This document shows positions 11,442 to 59,700 of a stretch of DNA of 64,000 nt, one piece after another (position 1 is the first letter of the stretch; each line of letters begins with the position of its first letter). Source of the stretch: an uncultured bacterium (GTDB taxonomy: Bacteria; Acidobacteriota; Aminicenantia; Aminicenantales; Saccharicenantaceae); the NCBI GenBank assembly GCA_937920515.1, contig CALEUG010000031.1, forward strand, positions 1 to 64,000, given 5' to 3'. Made by a program: the position numbers and the translations under genes. Below the pieces are notes generated by a model. That model saw only the letters and a list, made by a program, of their open reading frames with translations, searched no databases and was not told where the DNA came from.

Positions 11442-13856
11442 TCAATTGGTCATCTGGGGTTCCTTGCTGGCTTCGGCCCCGGCCGGCGGCTGCTTTTCCT
11501 TGGCTTCGGGCTCAGTCGGGCCGGCCTTGGGAACCAGCTCTTCGGTCAGGGCTATTTTCAGCACCTGGTTCATATTTTCCACCAGATGGACTTTAAGGTT
11601 TTGCTTGAGTTTCTTGGGCAGGTCCTTGAGGTCGGGGCGGTTGTCCACCGGCAGGATGACCTCGGTGATACCTTCCCGGAAGGCAGCCAGGAGTTTTTCC
11701 TTTATGCCGCCCACGGGCAGGACCTTGCCTCTCAGGGTGATTTCCCCGCTCATGGCCACCTTCTTGCTAACCGGTATACCCGCCAGCAACGAAATTATGG
11801 CCGTGGCGATGGTTATTCCGGCCGACGGCCCCTCTTTGGGAGTGGCGCCTTCTGGCACGTGGATGTGTATATCAAAGTTCTTTTCCAGTTCCTTGCCCAT
11901 GTTGAGCTCGTAGAGCTTGTGCCGAACATAACTGTAGGCGGCCTGGGCTGACTCCTGCATGATTTCGCCCAGGTGGCCGGTCAGGGTCAGGTTGCCCTTG
12001 CCGTGAATCTTGGTGGCTTCAAAGGTCAGCAGTTCGCCCCCGAATTCGGTCCAGGCCATCCCCAGGGCCACCCCGATTTCATTCTGCTGGTCGATTTCCA
12101 GACGGCGGTACTTGGGAATGCCCAGGTAGTTTTCCACCGCCTTGGCCGTCAGCTTCTCCCGATATTCCTTGCCCCTGGTCACCACCTTTTTGACCATCTT
12201 GCGGCAGATGGAAGTGATCTCCCGCTCCAGGTTCCTGACTCCAGCCTCACGGGTGTATTCCCGGATTATCTTCAATATGGCCTGCTCGGTGAACTCCAGA
12301 TTCCTGGAGGTCAGGCCATGAGCCTTAAGCTGCTTGGGAATCAGAAATTGCCTGGCAATCTGGATTTTTTCGTCCTCGGTGTATCCGGGCAACCTGATGA
12401 CTTCCATCCGGTCCAGCAGGGCCCGCGGAATGGGGTCTATGGAATTGGCAGTAACAATGAACATCACCTGGGACAGGTCAAAATCGGTGTCGATATAATG
12501 GTCCAGGAATTCCCTGTTCTGTTCCGGGTCCAGCACTTCCATCAGGGCTGCTGCCGGGTCGCCGCGGTAGTCCATGCTCATCTTATCCACTTCATCCAGC
12601 AGGAAAACCGGGTTCCTGGTTCCGGCCCTTTTTATCATCTGGATAATCCGGCCGGGATAAGCCCCGATGTAAGTCCGGCGATGTCCCCTGATTTCGGCTT
12701 CGTCCCGGACTCCCCCCAGCGACAGCCGGACGAATTTACGGCCGGTAGCCCGGGCGATGGATTTCCCCAGGGAGGTCTTGCCAACTCCCGGGGGCCCGAT
12801 AAAGGCCAGGATGACGCCTTTGGGGTTCTTGACCAGCTGGCGGATGGCCAGGTATTCCAGGATTCTTTCCTTGACCTTCTCCAGCCCGTAATGGTCTTCG
12901 TTCAGGATCTTTTCGGCTTCCTTCAGGTCCCTCTTTTCCCTTGATTTCTTGTTCCAGGGCAGGGAAATAAGCCAGTCCAGGTAGTTCCGGCTGACCGTGG
13001 CCTCGGCCGACATCGGCGGCATGGTTTCCAGGCGCTCAATCTCTTTCATGGCCTTCTCGTGGGCATCAGGCGGCATCTGGGCTGCGGCCACCTTCTTCTT
13101 TAACTCTTCTATTTCATTCGGTTGTTCTTCTTTCTTGAACTGACCACCGGGAATGAAGGTTCGCTGGCCACCTTCCTTCTGCCCTCCCCTTCTCCGGGCG
13201 GAACCGGCAGTCGGTTCTCTCCCGACGAAATTGACCAGGGATTCCTGGAGCAGGAACCTGAGGCGGTTCAGCCTTTCCCGCGTGTTAAGAGTTTCCAGCA
13301 GGTTTTGTTTTTCTTCCAGCGGCAGATACAGATGGGATGAGATGATGTCGGCAATCCGGTCAGTGCTGTTTTCTCTCAGGGCCGGGATGATGGAATCCAG
13401 GTTGGCATTCTGGTTTATCTTTAAGTACTCCTCAAAAAGGGCCAGGACCTTCTTGAGCAGCTCCTGGGTCTCCGCAGAATTGTCCTCGATTTCTTTGACC
13501 ACCTTGGCCAGTATCTGGTAATAAGGATAGGTGCTGAGGAACTCAACGATCCGGGCCCGGTTCAGCCCTTCGACGATGACCTTCATGTTCCGTTCATCGG
13601 TCCTGACCGTCCGGATAATCCTGGCCGTGACCCCCATGGTGTAGATATCGCGGGGCAAGGGATTGTCGATGCCGGCATCCATCTGGGCCGCCAGGAAAAT
13701 AAGCTTATCCTTCTCGTAGGCCTTCTCCAGGGCCTTGATGGATGAAGGCCGGCCCACAACAAACGGCACCAGGGTGGCCGGGAAAACCACCAGGTCCCGC
13801 AGCGGAATGAGCGGGATATTTTTTATCAGTTCAGATTTTTCCTGGGATTCCGTCAT
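11442..13856 (-). CDS. lon: ATP-dependent protease La
   Basis: 804 residues, typical of bacterial LonA. Domains in order: N-terminal substrate domain (about 10-205), a linker with a charged, Gly/Arg-rich insertion around 215-240 (TAGSARRRGGQKEGGQR), AAA+ ATPase with Walker A GPPGVGKTS and Walker B PVFLLDEVDK, sensor regions, and the Ser/Lys protease domain with catalytic Ser in EGPSAGIT and Lys in PVGGIKEK. The C-terminus has a Pro/Glu/Lys-rich tail (about 780-804). It degrades misfolded and regulatory proteins in the cytoplasm. The start lies one base beyond the clpX stop, so the two are translationally coupled. Confidence 0.98.
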   Translation of the reverse strand: MTESQEKSELIKNIPLIPLRDLVVFPATLVPFVVGRPSSIKALEKAYEKDKLIFLAAQMDAGIDNPLPRDIYTMGVTARIIRTVRTDERNMKVIVEGLNRARIVEFLSTYPYYQILAKVVKEIEDNSAETQELLKKVLALFEEYLKINQNANLDSIIPALRENSTDRIADIISSHLYLPLEEKQNLLETLNTRERLNRLRFLLQESLVNFVGREPTAGSARRRGGQKEGGQRTFIPGGQFKKEEQPNEIEELKKKVAAAQMPPDAHEKAMKEIERLETMPPMSAEATVSRNYLDWLISLPWNKKSREKRDLKEAEKILNEDHYGLEKVKERILEYLAIRQLVKNPKGVILAFIGPPGVGKTSLGKSIARATGRKFVRLSLGGVRDEAEIRGHRRTYIGAYPGRIIQMIKRAGTRNPVFLLDEVDKMSMDYRGDPAAALMEVLDPEQNREFLDHYIDTDFDLSQVMFIVTANSIDPIPRALLDRMEVIRLPGYTEDEKIQIARQFLIPKQLKAHGLTSRNLEFTEQAILKIIREYTREAGVRNLEREITSICRKMVKKVVTRGKEYREKLTAKAVENYLGIPKYRRLEIDQQNEIGVALGMAWTEFGGELLTFEATKIHGKGNLTLTGHLGEIMQESAQAAYSYVRHKLYELNMGKELEKNFDIHIHVPEGATPKEGPSAGITIATAIISLLAGIPVSKKVAMSGEITLRGKVLPVGGIKEKLLAAFREGITEVILPVDNRPDLKDLPKKLKQNLKVHLVENMNQVLKIALTEELVPKAGPTEPEAKEKQPPAGAEASKEPQMTN

Positions 13857-13857
13857 G

Positions 13858-15105
13858 TTAAGCTCCCATGACCTGTTTATATTTTTCGTAACTCAGCCTC
13901 TGTTCTTCCACCATTTCCCGGGTGATGACGATCCTGGTTTCCTTTTTCTGGGACGGCAGGTAGAACATCAGGTCGAGCATCAGGTCCTCAATTATGGCCC
14001 TTAGCCCCCGGGCTCCCAGCTTCTTCTCTATCGACTTTTCAGCTATGGCCTGGAGGGCCTCGGCCGTAAACTCCAGTTCGACTCCCTCCATTTCAAACAG
14101 CTTCTGGTACTGCTTGATAATGGCATTCTTAGGTCTGGTCAGGATTTCAATCAGGTGTTCCCGGTCGAGGTCGTGGAAAACGGCCACCACCGGCACCCGG
14201 CCGACCAGCTCCGGAATCAGGCCATATTTTATCAGGTCCTCTGGCATCAGGTGGCTGTAGATGTCCTGGCTGGCAACCAGCTTCTTGATCTCGGCCTTGA
14301 AACCAACCGTGGATTTTCCAAGGCGCTGGGCGATTATCTTATCCAGCCCGTTAAAGGCGCCTCCGCAGATAAATAGTATATCAGAAGTATCCACGGGAAT
14401 GAACTCCTGGTACGGGTGTTTGCGGCCGCCCTGAGGGGGGACGTTGGCCACCGTGCCCTCGATGATCTTGAGCAGGGCCTGCTGAACTCCTTCTCCTGAG
14501 ACGTCCCTGGTGATGGACGGGCTGTCGCTCTTGCGGCTGATTTTATCTATTTCATCTATGTAGATTATTCCCTTCTGGGTCTTCTCAATGTTGCCCTTGG
14601 CCGCCTGAAACAGCTTCAGGACAATGTTCTCCACATCCTCGCCCACGTAGCCGGCCTCGGTCAGGGTGGTGGCGTCGGCAATGGCAAACGGCACCGACAG
14701 CAGCCTGGCCAGGGTCTGGGCCATCAGGGTCTTGCCGGTTCCGGTCGGACCGATAAACAGCAGGTTGCTCTTGGTAATTTCCACCTCGCTCTGGCCCCTG
14801 GGCTGGTTGATACGCTTGTAATGGTTATAGACGGCCACAGCTATCTTCTTCTTGGCTTCTTCCTGGCCAACGATGTACTCGTCCAGGGCTTTCTTGATCT
14901 GAACCGGCGTCAGAAAGGGCTCTTTTTTCTGCTTTACTTCCAGTTCCTGCTGGCGGTCGGAAATCAGGATGGAATGGGCAATTTCCACACAGTTATCACA
15001 GATGTAGACCTTCTGCGGACCGGCAATCAGCCTCCGGACCTGGGTCTGGGTCCGATGACAGAAACTGCACTTGACCGTGCCCGCATTTTGTTCGTTGATA
15101 GTCAT
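13858..15105 (-). CDS. clpX: ATP-dependent Clp protease ATP-binding subunit ClpX
   Basis: 415 residues. The N-terminal zinc-binding domain has four Cys (CSFCHRTQ ... CDNC). The AAA+ domain carries Walker A GPTGTGKT, Walker [10 protein letters not shown], the pore loop GYVGED and the arginine-finger region. ClpX unfolds tagged substrates and feeds them to ClpP. It lies between clpP (41-base gap) and lon, the common bacterial tig-clpP-clpX-lon order. Confidence 0.98.
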
Positions 15106-15146
15106 TTTCTATGCCTTACCCGCTCTCCACGGGGAACCATGGCCGC

Positions 15147-15743
15147 TCAGGCGAGTGTTTCCTTACGGGAACTGATGATCTGGTCAATCAGACCATACTC
15201 TCTGGCCTGAACAGGAGTCATGATGAAATCCCGTTCAACTTCGGCCTGGATTCTCTCAAGGGGCTGGCCGGTATGCCTGGCCAGGATCTGGTTCAGGTTC
15301 TCGCGCATCCTAAGAATCTCTTTAGCCTGGATGGCCAGGTCGCTGGCCTGGCCCTGGAATTCACCAAAAGGCTGGTGCAGAACGACTCTGGAATTGGGCA
15401 GGGCAAATCTCTTGCCGGTTGTCCCGGCTGCCAGCAGCACAGCGGCCATGCTGGCTGCCTGCCCCAGGCAAATGGTGGTCACGGGTGAAGTTATGAACTG
15501 CATCGTATCGTAAATGGCCAGGCCGGCAGTGATGCTGCCTCCCGGTGAATTTATGTACAATGAAATGTCCTTATCGCTGGCCTCGGCTTCCAGGTAGAGC
15601 AGCTGGGCGATTACCAGGTTGGCCACCTCATCCGTTATTTCTGTGCCCAGGAATATTATCCTGTCCTTGAGCAGCCTGGAATATATGTCGTAACCGCGCT
15701 CGGTGCGCCCCTCGGATTCGATGACGAAAGGAATTATGGCCAT
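15147..15743 (-). CDS. clpP: ATP-dependent Clp protease proteolytic subunit
   Basis: 198 residues with the complete Ser-His-Asp triad: Ser in GQAASMAA, His in VVLHQP and the downstream Asp. The [15 protein letters not shown] oxyanion region is present. It forms the tetradecameric protease chamber used by ClpX. No ribosome site precedes the ATG (GCTTCCCCT), but a strong promoter lies in the tail of tig, so clpP can be transcribed apart from tig. Confidence 0.98.
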
Positions 15744-15753
15744 AGGGGAAGCT

Positions 15754-17031
15754 TTAAAATATTATAATCCTCCCGGCTAAAAAGTCAACCGTTTTTCGGA
15801 GGAGCAGGTTGAGCTTCCAGTCCTCGTCGCGACCGTCCCGGGTTAAGGCCGCCTTGAGCTGGTCCAGTGGTATGTTTCTTGTCTCCGAGACTCTTTTCAG
15901 CTCCTGCTCGAACTCTTCGGGGGTAATTTCCAGTCCTTCCCGGGCAGCTATTTTTCGAAGCAATATATGATTTTTAAGGCTGGCTTCGGCCTGTTTCCGG
16001 GCCTGTTCCAGGAGACCGGGCCAGAGGTTGGCGGGAATTTTCTTCAGTTCTTCCTCGCGGAACTGGCGCCCGATTATGGCCTGGGCCTCTTCTTTGACCA
16101 TGCTCTCCGGAATGGCCAGGTTTATTTCTGCGGCCAGCCTGGCCAGGTACTGATCTATGGCTTTATCCCTGGCCTCTTCTTCCCGGCGCCTGGCCAGGTC
16201 CTGCCTGATCTTTTCTTTCAGGGCTTCCAGGTTTTCCACCTCATCGACCAGCCTGGCAAAATCGTCGTTGAGCTCCGGCAGTTTTTTCTCTTTTACTTCC
16301 AGGACCTTCAGCCTGTACTCTATTTCTTTCCCGGCAAATTTCTTCTGCCGGTAATCCGGCGGATACTTGACGGTGAAATTCTTCTCGTCTCCTGGCTTCA
16401 ATCCAGGCAGGACCTCATTCAGCTGGGGCTCGTTATCAGGGTGGCCGGCCAGCACCACCACCTTTTCCACCGGCAAGAACTTCCTGGAAACGGCCTCTCT
16501 GCCCTGAATCTCAATGACCACGTAATCACCGGACTGAACTCCGCGCCCGGTCACCGGCAGGTATTCGGACGCGTTTTCCCTGAGCCTGTTGAGCACGGCT
16601 TCGACCTCAGCTTCTTCCAGCTGGGTCTTTTCCTTCTCGACTTTTCTCTCCAGATAATCGGCCGGAAGGTCGAATTCCGGCCAGACTTCAAAGGACACCT
16701 GGTACCTGACTCCCCCTTCCAGGCTGAAGTCAACCGATTTGACCGTGGGCACGTTGACCGGAATGATTTTCAGGTTTTCCAGCTCCTGTCTCAGGTTATC
16801 GGGAATGAGGTTATCCAGAACCTCTTCCTTGATTTCGGCCTCAAACATCCTCTGCACCATATCTTTTGGGGCATATCCCTTCCTGAAACCCGGCAACCTG
16901 ACCCGGGCCACATAGTCCCTGAGAACTTTCTCGTATTCTTTCTTAACCGTTTCGGGAGAGATTTCCAGGTCCAGTTCCCGGACCGTCGGGCTGACCACTT
17001 TCAGCCTTTCCTGGTTGGTGTCTTTCTCCAT
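15754..17031 (-). CDS. tig: Trigger factor, ribosome-associated chaperone and prolyl isomerase
   Basis: 425 residues. The N-terminal ribosome-binding domain has the signature region [12 protein letters not shown] (consensus GFRxGxxP). A PPIase/FKBP-like middle domain follows (about 155-245, [11 protein letters not shown] ... [23 protein letters not shown]), then a helical C-terminal chaperone domain (about 250-425). It binds nascent chains at the exit tunnel. GGAAAAC precedes the ATG. tRNA-Leu lies 74 bases upstream on the same strand. Confidence 0.96.
15761..15788 (-). promoter_or_regulatory. Predicted promoter of clpP inside the end of tig
   Basis: Reading the minus strand: TTGACT (15788-15783), 16-base spacer, perfect TATAAT (15766-15761). 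The start point would fall around 15754, about 11 bases before the clpP ATG. The elements overlap the last tig codons. Confidence 0.6.
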
Positions 17032-17105
17032 TGTTTTCCTCTAATTATGAATTGCCCCTGCAATCAGCCCGGTTTGATTGGATTCAGGCTGTTGAATGCT
17101 GGGAA

Positions 17106-17190
17106 TGGGCAGAGCGGGAATCGAACCCGCACTCCTTGTTCAGGAACTAGGTCCTAAGCCTAGTGCGTCTGCCAATTCCGCCACCTGCCC
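17106..17190 (-). tRNA. tRNA-Leu (anticodon UAG)
   Basis: The minus strand gives an 85-nt class II tRNA. Acceptor stem GGGCAGG pairs with the CTGCCC end, followed by discriminator A. The anticodon stem is CTAGG/CCTAG around loop CTTAGGA (anticodon TAG). A short variable arm and the T arm GCGGGTTCGATTCCCGC are present. CCA is not encoded. It lies upstream of tig in the same direction. Confidence 0.95.
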
Positions 17191-17262
17191 AAATAAATTT
17201 TTAAGGAAGTCTGATTGCCTGTGTGGATTAAGAATGAAAAATACCATACTTCAGCCTGTCAG

Positions 17263-17310: not shown

Positions 17311-19152
17311 CTACTTTATAAGCTTGGCCAGGCGGCTGGCCAGATTCTGGTCCAGCCTCTGCAGGGTCTTCAGGACTTCCCTGGCGCTATAGTTATCCTT
17401 GAGATTGATGTAGGTTATACCCAGGTTATACTGGGCCACAGCATTGTTGGGGTTAAGGGCCACACACTTCTCCAGGTTAGGCAGGGCCTTCTCAAAATCC
17501 TTCATAAGCATGTATTCCAGCCCGATATTCAGCCAGCCGCTGGGGTCATCCGGGGCCAGGGCGGTATACTTCTTGAAGGCTTCAACTGCTTCGGGATGTT
17601 TCTTCATCTTATCGTAAACTATGCCCAGGTTAAACCAGGCATGGGTATAATCGTTCTTGACGGCCAGACATTCGTTGAGAGTACTGGCTGCCTCTTCCAG
17701 CCGTCCCAGCCGGTCATACATGATGGCCAGGTTGTAAAGAGCCACTTCATTCTTAGGATTTATCTCCACTATTTTTCTGGCCGCTTCCACTGCTTTTTCA
17801 TAATTCCGGGCCCGGTCATACATCTGCATGATCTGGCCATAATAGGTTATGGCATCACGCTGGTTCATGGCCGCCAGCTTCTTAAAGACGGCTTCGGCTT
17901 CTTCCAGTTGATTGGTTTCGGCCAGCATCTTGGCCAGGTTATAGTTACAGTTCAGGTCATCAGGGTTGATCTTCAGGGCTTCCCGGAAGGCGGCTATGGC
18001 CTTCTCCGGCTGGTTGAGCCTCTGGTAGGTCTGGGCCAGTTTTAACCAGGCCGGAAAAGGATTGGCCGGCCCGCTCCTGGCATACTTTTCGTAGTTTTCG
18101 GCGGCCCGGGCCAGATCCTGCAACTCTTCATAGGCCGTTCCCAGTTCAAAATATATTTCTTTTGAATCCACCCCGCTGCTAACGGCTTTTTCCAGGAATT
18201 CAGTCGCTTCTTTGAACTTTCTTTCCTTTAACTGGGTCAGCCCCAGGCCGTAAAGAGCCCGGGGGTGGTCCGGGTTCAGGAGCAGAGCCCTGGTGAAATT
18301 CTTGTAGCTTTCGGCGGTATTCCCCAGTTTATAATAGGACTGTCCAAGAAGCACGTAACTTTCCAGGTCGTCCGGCTTGAACTTAATATATTTTTCCAGG
18401 TAGACGCTGGTCAGGCCCGGCTCGTTAAGCAGGGCGGCTGCCCGGCCCACCAGGAAGCTGCCCTGGGCCTGTTCCAGGTAATTTTCCTTGGAGACCGCTT
18501 TCAATTCCTGCCCTTTAGCCTGGGAGTTCATGGCCAGGACCGCTTCAACCGGAACGCCAAACTTGACCCCGGCCCCGAAAACCAGGGCCACTCCGACCAC
18601 CTGGCCCCGGGCATCGAAAATCGGGGCTCCACAGGCCGGTTTTTCCAGGTTCATGGTTACTTCCATTAACCTCAGCTTACCCGGAGAGATTTCCAGCCAG
18701 TTTCTCAGGTTCCCCTCGGTGATGATTACCTGCCCGGAAATTTCACTCAGAGCAAAAAGCCGGTCCCCGGCCTTCAGAGCGGTGGATGCTCCCGTCGATA
18801 ATCCATTGAACTTGCCTTTTATCCTGACCAGGGCCAGGTCATAATCACGGTGACTGGCCACCAGAGCTTCTACTTTTCCACTTTTTCCAGAAATGCTTGT
18901 GACTTCAGCTTCAGTGGCCCGGGAAATGAGATGATAGGGCACCACGATCAGGTTTTCAGCCAGGGCAAATCCCGTGCCCTCCCCTACCACATTCTTGCTA
19001 TTATCCCAGGCTTTGAAGGTAACCACGCCAGCTGAAGCTTTCCCCAGTATATCAATGCCTTCCTGCGGTTGAGCGGCAGACCATGTCTTACAGAGTAAGA
19101 AACAGAGTAAGAACAAAAAGGCAGAAAAAAAGACGAGATGCTTTTTCCTCAT
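17311..19152 (-). CDS. Secreted trypsin-like fold protein with TPR array (Cys at the Ser position)
   Basis: 613 residues from ATG 19152, chosen because AAGGAGG lies five bases upstream; an ATG at 19167 would overlap this site. Signal sequence at about 1-27. Residues 35-215 look like a degenerate S1C/DegP-type domain: GTGFAL, His74 in VVPYHLI, Asp105 in YDLALVRI, and ACGAPIFDARGQVVGV where DegP has GNSGGPLFN. The nucleophile position is therefore Cys174. The rest (about 225-613) is a run of about ten TPR motifs (for example YNLAIMYDRLGRLEEA, FNLGIVYDKMKKHPEA), a protein-binding scaffold. It may be a Cys-dependent protease or a non-catalytic trypsin-like sensor. It is divergent from the DUF2085 gene. 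Confidence 0.75.
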   Translation of the reverse strand: MRKKHLVFFSAFLFLLCFLLCKTWSAAQPQEGIDILGKASAGVVTFKAWDNSKNVVGEGTGFALAENLIVVPYHLISRATEAEVTSISGKSGKVEALVASHRDYDLALVRIKGKFNGLSTGASTALKAGDRLFALSEISGQVIITEGNLRNWLEISPGKLRLMEVTMNLEKPACGAPIFDARGQVVGVALVFGAGVKFGVPVEAVLAMNSQAKGQELKAVSKENYLEQAQGSFLVGRAAALLNEPGLTSVYLEKYIKFKPDDLESYVLLGQSYYKLGNTAESYKNFTRALLLNPDHPRALYGLGLTQLKERKFKEATEFLEKAVSSGVDSKEIYFELGTAYEELQDLARAAENYEKYARSGPANPFPAWLKLAQTYQRLNQPEKAIAAFREALKINPDDLNCNYNLAKMLAETNQLEEAEAVFKKLAAMNQRDAITYYGQIMQMYDRARNYEKAVEAARKIVEINPKNEVALYNLAIMYDRLGRLEEAASTLNECLAVKNDYTHAWFNLGIVYDKMKKHPEAVEAFKKYTALAPDDPSGWLNIGLEYMLMKDFEKALPNLEKCVALNPNNAVAQYNLGITYINLKDNYSAREVLKTLQRLDQNLASRLAKLIK

Positions 19153-56768: not shown

Positions 56769-59700
56769 CTATTTTTTGGGATAAGGCGGCACAGGTGGCA
56801 ATTGCGGTTCTTTTGTCTTCAGCTCTTCCATAATTATTTCGATAGCCTTATTGAGCTGTTCGTCTATTCCTTCGTATTCCCGGGCCGGGTCGTTATCAAC
56901 ATAAATATCCGGTTCGACACCCTCGCCTTCAATTATCCACTGGCCCTCCAGGCTGTAGGTGGCAAACTCGGGCTTGTTCAGGTATCCTCCGTCAACCAGG
57001 GGCAAACTGCCCCGGATGCCAACGACGCCTCCCCAGGTCCTCTTGCCAATTAGCTTCCCGAGCTGCATTCTCTTGAAACGATAAGGGAAAATATCGCCAT
57101 CTGAAGCCGAAAACTCGTTGATCAAACAGACCTTTGGGCCCAGGATCAGGGCTTCAGGGTCCGGCCTGGGAACCGAGCCCCGGGCGATGTCCATCATGAC
57201 CGCCTGGCGGGCCAGCCTTTCAGCCAGCATGGGCGAAACATTTCCGCCGCCGTTTCCCCGGACATCGATAATCAGGGCTTTTTTATCGGTCTGCGGATAA
57301 AAATGCTTGACGAATTCATTGAGACCGCTCACCCCCATGTCGGGCACGTGGATGTAGGCCACTTTGCCGCCCGTGGCTTTAGCCACATACTCTATATTCT
57401 TCTTTACCCAGTTGTAATAATAAAGGCTGTTTTCGGTCTCGATCGGCACCACCACCACCTCGCGGGCACCCTTTTCCGAAGGCTGAGCATTTACTTTCAG
57501 GGTTACCTGTTTTCCGGCTGTGTTAACCAGAAGCTCATAAATGTCTTTCACCCGGTTCACCGGTTTTCCGTTAACCGCGATTATGTATTCGCCCTCCCTG
57601 ACGTTGACCCCGACCCCGGTCAGCGGCGAGCGCAGGTTCCGGTCCCAGTTCTGGCCGGCCAGAATCTTCTTTATAAGGTAATAGCCCGATCTATCGCGTT
57701 CCAGGCGGGCCCCCAGCCGGCCGACGTTCACCCGGTCCACTTTCGGCAGGTCGCCGCCGCCAACGTAGGTGTGGCCGGCGTTAAGCTCTCCGATCATTTC
57801 ACCGATGACATAGGTCAGGTCGGCCCGGTGGTTGACCGCCCTGGCCAGCGGTTCATACCGGCTCCTGACTTTTTCCCAGTCCACCCCGTGCAGGTTGGGG
57901 GCATAGAAAAAATCTTTCATCTGCCGCCAGCATTCATCAAATATCTGGGCCCACTCGGCTTTCCGATCGAGCCACATTTCCAGCCCGGAGAGATTCAGCT
58001 TGTCCTCAATCTTGATCGGACCCGACGGAAGGTCGATGATGGCAAAATCACGCCCCTGCTGCACCAGCATCTTCTTCCGATCGGCCGAGATGGCATAGCC
58101 ATTGACAGTGCCCAGGTCCTTTTCTTCCAGCCTGTTCAGGTCGTAGACCTTAAGTGAGGTCTGCCGGTCGCCGAAGGACCTTTTCATATAATAAAGCCTG
58201 TCTCCAGCCGAGGTCAGGCCGAAATAGCCGGAAACCTCAACTGGCAGGGCGACGATCCTGTCCTTGATACCATCCCTGTCAACCCGGACGGTTAATTTTT
58301 CTGAATCCGGCCTGGCTGCAGCCGGCTTTTCCTCTTTTGTTTTTTCCGGCCTGGCTGCCTCGGCCACTGCCACTTTCACCTCATCGCTCTTCGGCTCAAA
58401 CGGAGATTTAACCTCCCGGTTCAGGGTCACCAGGTAGATTCGCGACATGTTGAGGTAAGCGTGGTTCCACTCGGTGCGGCTGTAGACCGGGTTGAAGTCG
58501 CGGTCGGAGACAAAAAACAGGTATTGACCGTCAGTGCTGAAGCAGGGCGAGTAGGAAGAGTACCAGCTGTCGGTGATCTCTATGGTTTCTTTGCTGTTCA
58601 GGTTATGCAGGTAAATTTTTTTCATTCCATTTTCGCCCTGGTCCGAGTAGGCAATCCAGGCCGAATCGGGAGACCAGGTATAATCCCTGATTTCCCAGAA
58701 CTTGCTCCTGGCCACCTCCACCACCTGCTTCTTTTCGATATCAACATAGCGCAACCGGAACAGGCGGTCTGACCAGAGCAGTTTCCTGCTGTCGGGAGAC
58801 CAGAGCGGGGCATACTTGTAACATTCGCCATCGCTGGTAAGCTGGACGGCCGGACCCGAGCCGTCCTGGGGAATGAGGTAGACTTCTTCCCGGCCGGTCC
58901 TGTCAGAAATGAAGGCAATCCAGCGCCCGTCGGGCGACCAGGTCACGTCCCGCTCATGAACACCTGAGGTTCCGGTCAGGTTCCGGGTGTTGCCGTTTTT
59001 GGCCGGCACAGTGAAAATCTCACCGCGGGCTCCAAACACCGCCCTGGCCCCGTCCGGGGCAATGTCCCAGGTGTTTATTCTGTCAGCCACCTTGACCAGC
59101 TCGGTCCTGGCCATCACCTGGTCGTCGGCAATGTAGACCGGAATCCGGCTGACTTTTTCCGAGGCCAGGTCCATCTTATAGAGATAACCCCCGTTCTCAA
59201 AAACGATGGAGTCCGGACCGAGAGAGGGGAATTTAATGTCGTAATCCTTAAAGTCCGTAACCTTCCGGGTCTCTTTTGTCTCCAGGTTATAAACATAAAT
59301 GTTAAACCTCTTGTTTTCATCCCGGTCGGAGAGGAAATAAATCTTGTTCCCGCTCCACATCGGAATGATGTCCGAGGCCTCGTTGTTTGTTATGTTTTCG
59401 GTCTTTTTTGTTTTGAAGTCGTAAATCCAGATGTCATCTACCATCCCGCCCCGGTATCTTTTCCAGGTGCGGAACTCCCGGAAGATGCGGTTAAAAGCCA
59501 GCTTCTGCCCGTCCGGCGAGTAGGAGCAGAACCCGCCGCGGGGAAGCGGCAGCTCTTCAGGCGTACCGCCTTCTTTTGGCACTGAGTAGAGCTGGCCGTT
59601 GAAATCATTCCACTCGGTCATCCTGGAACGAAAGATGATTTTCTGGCCGTCTGGAGTCCAGCCCAGGACGATGTTGTTCGGCCCCATCCTGTCCGAGATG

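Follow-up and report, generated by a model that had tools for sequence, protein, structure and literature searches.

A degenerate HtrA-type protease domain on a TPR arm, conserved in Aminicenantales and probably serving as a binding module

A trypsin-like domain joined to TPRs upstream of tig

The stretch analysed here (the window; 64,000 nucleotides) carries on its minus strand an open reading frame of 613 amino acids (17311..19152 (-), open from MRKK), which encodes a probably exported protein composed of an apparent Trypsin_2 pseudoprotease domain and a series of TPRs. In the ORF list the frame begins at an upstream ATG (19167). MRKK is the likelier start, because in the protein's own genus, Candidatus Saccharicenans, the codons preceding the methionine of MRKK/MKK mostly spell GGxM and are thus RBS-like. 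A promoter-like sequence, TTGACA-18-TAAATT, lies upstream of the start; it is a consensus match only, and six such matches occur in the scanned stretch against 1.8 expected by shuffling.

Judged by eye, residues 1-27 (19072..19152 (-)) resemble a Sec signal peptide ending in SAA before a Q, the N-termini of the orthologues listed are similarly hydrophobic, and no lipobox is seen in the N-terminus. To look for evidence of an outer membrane, the genome was searched for OprB, which gave no match, and for Omp85, which matches at five places and fits a diderm envelope. S41 domains occur at four places in the genome, and one Peptidase_S41 match in the window (56898-57365 (-)) lies in a frame of 1112 aa.

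The Trypsin_2 (HtrA/S1C-like) domain covers residues 59-188 (18589..18978 (-)), preceded by only ~58 residues, and is identified by Pfam (44.9 bits; cut-off 27.6), Foldseek, VIA and profile alignment. The C-terminal part matches TPR models. Divided by hand along the helices of the structural model, it comprises 11 units (17341..18468 (-)) starting at residues 229, 263, 297, 331, 366, 400, 435, 469, 503, 537 and 571 and ending at ~604. The original prediction had called the domain DegP-like, a label that suits this protease part only; PDZ is absent among the best 25 of 36 Pfam matches, and TPR units fill residues 229 to ~604.

Of 60 genomes of the genus, family and order (own genome included), 57 contain a match that spans the protease-TPR length or is truncated where its contig ends. 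The other three (G007, G045, G047) gave weak matches only (best E 1e-10 to 1e-17), which were taken as other TPR proteins and were not aligned. In a phylum sample of 297 genomes, 22 match at 1e-40 or better; 20 of these belong to the order, and the other 2 to other parts of the class. Genomes of the order Aminicenantales usually carry one copy. Two copies are seen in G019 (L044 and L045, only one of which adjoins tig) and in G114 (L086 and L089).

Downstream in the window follow a tRNA-Leu gene (17105..17191 (-)) and tig-clpP-clpX-lon (11442..17031 (-)), recognised by eye from the translations, with ClpP identified by Pfam and their presence in relatives by tblastn. A downstream tig on the same strand was seen at 50 of 58 loci (L007-L064), some kilobases away in the case of L058 and L059; five of the eight loci without it (L015, L024, L051, L053, L064) end within ~320 bases, and three (L044, L046, L050) show ~4 kb. 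The tRNA-Leu gene separates the two genes in 22 of 23 loci scanned, L050 being the one without. Although this gene order is old, it says little for a shared function, since trigger factor and Lon are cytoplasmic.

Within this neighbourhood (window 13858-15743) clpP, and by gene order clpX too, is seemingly missing in many near relatives, whose genomes are incomplete MAGs. Strong ClpP matches (E below 1e-75; 44 genomes) were obtained in 12/18 genomes of the own genus, 0/13 of genus g4, 1/2 of other genera of the family and 11/11 of other families. At g4 loci with enough flank, lon directly follows tig, and G013 holds a ClpP fragment with a stop near the contig end.

The gene is under purifying selection. 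When L007 is compared with six close relatives (L008, L009, L011-L014), dN/dS is 0.065-0.172 in the domain and 0.055-0.078 in the TPR part. Domain values for L016 (0.204) and L017 (0.115) come at dS 1.38 and 2.22 and are unreliable, and L015 is saturated. Among four further pairs, three had a domain dN of 0.124-0.179 at dS 0.65-1.48 and one was nearly identical. A pseudogene or a sequencing error is ruled out by dN/dS well under 1 and by the lack of inner stops in the orthologous frames listed. Conservation of the TPR groove, a sign of peptide binding, was not detected: groove positions are no slower than other TPR positions (mean rate 1.09 vs 1.02, p = 0.87), and conservation thus lends the scaffold role no support. 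The last two repeats look slow.

Fold and alignment of the active site

The closest solved relative of the domain is that of RsgI9 from Clostridium thermocellum (7sjy). It is the best match of the sequence profile among solved structures (131.5 bits; next HTRA1, 75.5) and ranks first in Foldseek with the domain model (S1C-NTF2, E 1.1e-12), followed by HtrA1; DegP and DegS are also among the Foldseek and VIA matches. By VIA, DegP 3mh4 (Z 14.2, rmsd 3.8, 176 aligned) and 7sjy (Z 13.9, rmsd 4.2, 183 aligned) tie. With the full model, the best 50 Foldseek matches are TPR or other helical-repeat proteins or complexes, with LbcA (7rqf) at rank 37. An AlphaFold model of the domain alone is weak (mean pLDDT 60.5; residues 146-174 under 50), and residues 171-180 average 57 in another model.

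His74 (18931..18933 (-)), Asp105 (18838..18840 (-)) and Cys174 (TGT, 18631..18633 (-)) are present as the original prediction had read them in a trypsin-like domain joined to TPRs, and they align with a catalytic triad. In a profile built from 49 of the 60 aligned family domains, their columns coincide with the His, the Asp and the Ser of GNSGGP in HTRA1 (3nzi). This alignment is gap-free next to all three sites, which rules out a misalignment of Cys174. The loop before it reads PACGAP and places Pro172 (18637..18639 (-)) at the position of the oxyanion-hole Gly (chymotrypsin 193); this loss of Gly is read from the alignment, the models being poor at that loop. The same position holds Glu in 7sjy, where the HMMER alignment shows Tyr-His and Asp retained and the nucleophile replaced by Thr.

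Family-wide loss of the catalytic residue set

In the orthologue alignment, 57 rows contain the domain, with His at 74 in 50 and Asp at 105 in 45. Position 174 holds S17, C15, R13, N5, T2, A2, D2 and Q1; with three class-level rows added, the counts over 60 rows become S19, C15, R13, N5, A3, T2, D2 and Q1. The rows include near-identical pairs, and the counts do not represent independent events. G019 contributes two rows; of the class-level rows, two belong to G114 and one to G166. L020, cut by its contig and without the domain, was left out at 74, 105, 172 and 174, while L024 and L064 are cut later. The original prediction had proposed an alignment of homologues as the check on Cys174 and a random residue there as the refuting outcome. 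That outcome was obtained: across the 60 rows the position takes eight residue types, and it is confined to Cys or Ser at the level of the genus.

The surrounding loop has changed as well. Position 172 is Gly in 4 of the 60 rows and Pro in 15. The residue before the nucleophile is usually Asn or Asp in trypsin-like enzymes, and neither occurs at 173 in any row. No row combines His, Asp, Ser or Cys at 174 and Gly172. The triad does not vary as a unit, since His and Asp are intact about equally often with Ser/Cys174 (26/34 rows) and with another residue there (22/26); the Fisher test (p = 0.53) is indicative only, the rows being related. L064, for example, has Cys174 together with Gln74 and Gly105. 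Different clades carry different residues at 174, and in genus g4 it is Arg in all 13 rows, 11 of which keep His and Asp.

Candidatus Saccharicenans is where a working chymotrypsin-fold cysteine protease (His74-Asp105-Cys174), arising by a genus-level Ser/Cys switch, would have to be sought. Position 174 is Cys in 14 and Ser in 3 of its 17 rows and nothing else, His-Asp-Cys is complete in 14 rows and His-Asp-Ser in 2 more, and the Cys codons are divided between TGT (5) and TGC (9). Yet Pro occupies the oxyanion Gly position in 14 of these 17 rows and Gly in none, and proline has no backbone NH to donate to the oxyanion hole. One genus member (L021) combines Ser174 with Asn at both the His and the Asp position, the other genera of the family have Arg174 in 13 of 16 rows, and 77 of the 192 domain columns are more conserved within the genus than 174. 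Such an enzyme is therefore very unlikely. The comparison with 3C-like cysteine proteases, whose motif GxCGG has Gly at the oxyanion position, leads the same way: Cys is not the family-wide nucleophile residue (15/60 rows), and the Gly is replaced by Pro172. On these residues, the thiol protease put forward in the original prediction is not supported. Because the genus has only Cys or Ser at 174 and uses both Cys codons, some chemistry at this site may nevertheless be selected, and it may serve a non-proteolytic role there. In the whole family, the triad positions do not drift freely: among the site rates of the domain, 74 ranks at the 2nd percentile, 105 at the 11th and 174 at the 13th, whereas 172 ranks at the 71st.

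Alternatively, the family could consist of residual or regulated serine proteases, in which the Ser members are active, perhaps after activation, and Cys, Arg and the other residues mark losses. Ser is indeed the commonest single state (19/60), and His-Asp-Ser is complete in 12 of the 60 rows, including 2 of the 3 class-level rows. Gly172, however, is found in 0 of these 12, and 173 lacks Asn and Asp throughout, although a control with an intact motif (L090) has Ser there. We regard this option as highly improbable.

Intact motifs are found in other Trypsin_2 proteins. The own genome has six Trypsin_2 places, including this gene and a partial match (L006). Two DegP-like proteins among them (L001, L002) keep TNNH/TNYH, DLAL/DIAV and GNSGGP. 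Two genomes of the genus also encode a distinct fusion of Trypsin_2 and TPRs (L090 770-1993 (+); L091 1154-2377 (-); Pfam for L090), whose active-site motif is intact, with TNRH, YDL and PGSSGSP. It shares domain order and genus with the 613-aa protein and differs in that the sequence read contains fewer TPRs (L090 runs into N). Elsewhere in the genus such motifs thus stay intact, and the family of the 613-aa protein departs from them.

Two further proteins of the own genome deviate in another way. L003 (364-2061 (-)), HtrA-like with PDZ domains, keeps GMSGGP, while its His and Asp look lost by eye (TTALIS, ETRIA); it is possibly a second pseudoprotease. L005 (595-2067 (-)), a Trypsin_2 protein, keeps GNSGGP with Trp and Gly at the His and Asp positions by eye, and from its residues is possibly a third.

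A presumed binding module and its known counterparts

Taken together, the homology, the family-wide loss of the catalytic residue set, the purifying selection and the conserved locus make it very probable that the protein is a catalytically dead HtrA-type (S1C, Trypsin_2) head on an 11-unit TPR solenoid, presumably exported; the head probably works as a binding or assembly module, and the TPR arm would dock partners. The original prediction had offered an inactive domain fused to a TPR scaffold as its other possibility, and the sequence supports it. We read the active site as kept for structure or binding, not for hydrolysis. Compared with S1C/HtrA proteases, the domain has the chymotrypsin-like fold, the His and the Asp and departs in the Ser of GNSGGP and in Gly193; with HtrA-derived pseudoproteases it shares the degenerate nucleophile, a residue other than Gly at 193 and selection on the gene. 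The protein would be exported to the periplasm, where the former active-site cleft of the head, or its surroundings, would hold a ligand, client peptide or partner.

What the head does could take narrower forms. As a special case of the dead-head explanation, it might be a purely structural spacer or an oligomerisation cap for the TPR arm, with a ligand-free cleft. This is possible but rather doubtful: the TPR part evolves slightly more slowly than the domain (mean site rate 0.95 vs 1.07) and the HtrA pseudoprotease PflC is reported to be used as a lattice (PMC12222027), but His74 and its neighbours V71, Y73, S77 and A79 are among the slowest domain sites, a pattern that could also be structural. 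We also entertain, as an unlikely extension, that the old triad site has become a tunable ligand pocket. The nucleophile residue would have been exchanged from clade to clade (Cys/Ser, Arg, Asn, Asp, Ala) and each replacement then held by selection, so that every lineage would use the dead cleft for recognition in its own way. Cys174 of Candidatus Saccharicenans would then act as a redox switch, as a ligand through its thiol or as an acyl acceptor, and not as the nucleophile of a hydrolase.

The literature matches listed (titles and abstract openings, with subscription journals thinly covered) contain no description of a Trypsin_2 pseudoprotease-TPR architecture. Most likely, the protein thus joins the dead HtrA domains, which are a known kind, while its architecture is absent from those matches. 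If this is right, another lineage has turned an HtrA-type protease to non-enzymatic use and joined it to a TPR arm, in a protein carried by almost all the genomes examined from one order. The case also carries a warning for annotation, as a domain search alone calls the 613-aa protein a trypsin-like peptidase. Its orthologues, which differ naturally at one active-site position, offer a ready set for testing how a dead protease cleft is used.

The S1C domain of RsgI9 is described as protease-like, polysaccharide-binding and able to bind cellulose (PMC12203970, 2025). Carbohydrate binding is accordingly one lead, no more, for the 613-aa protein. RsgI9 itself is reported to be an anti-sigma factor that spans the membrane and includes an NTF2 domain, whereas the protein here is a TPR protein. 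The arm finds its match in LbcA, the TPR adaptor of CtpA in Pseudomonas aeruginosa, an envelope protein whose reported 11-TPR spiral (PMC8764530) equals the 11 units here; LbcA differs in being a lipoprotein and in activating a C-terminal processing protease, and its abstract does not mention a protease-like head (PMC8764530).

Two HtrA-type proteins illustrate how the fold may be put to non-enzymatic use. PflC, a motor disk protein of Campylobacter jejuni, is described as an HtrA-derived periplasmic scaffold whose catalytic residues are lost (PMC12222027); unlike the protein here, it has two PDZ-like domains, and the loop carrying the His is reported to be lost altogether (PMC12222027). The magnetosome pseudoprotease MamO is closer in its residues: it shares the HtrA-type fold and is reported to have kept His and Asp, replaced the nucleophile (by Thr) and acquired a residue other than Gly at 193. 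Gly at this position is described as highly conserved and critical for catalysis, any other residue strongly disfavouring the active loop (PMC4794232). As reported for MamO, none of the three triad residues is needed for nucleation, His and Asp matter for crystal growth in a temperature-dependent manner, and the nucleophile is dispensable in vivo (PMC4794232). MamO differs in its TauE domain and its binding of transition metals. By analogy with MamO, PflC, RsgI9 and LbcA in their own systems, the TPR arm of the 613-aa protein would dock other envelope proteins.
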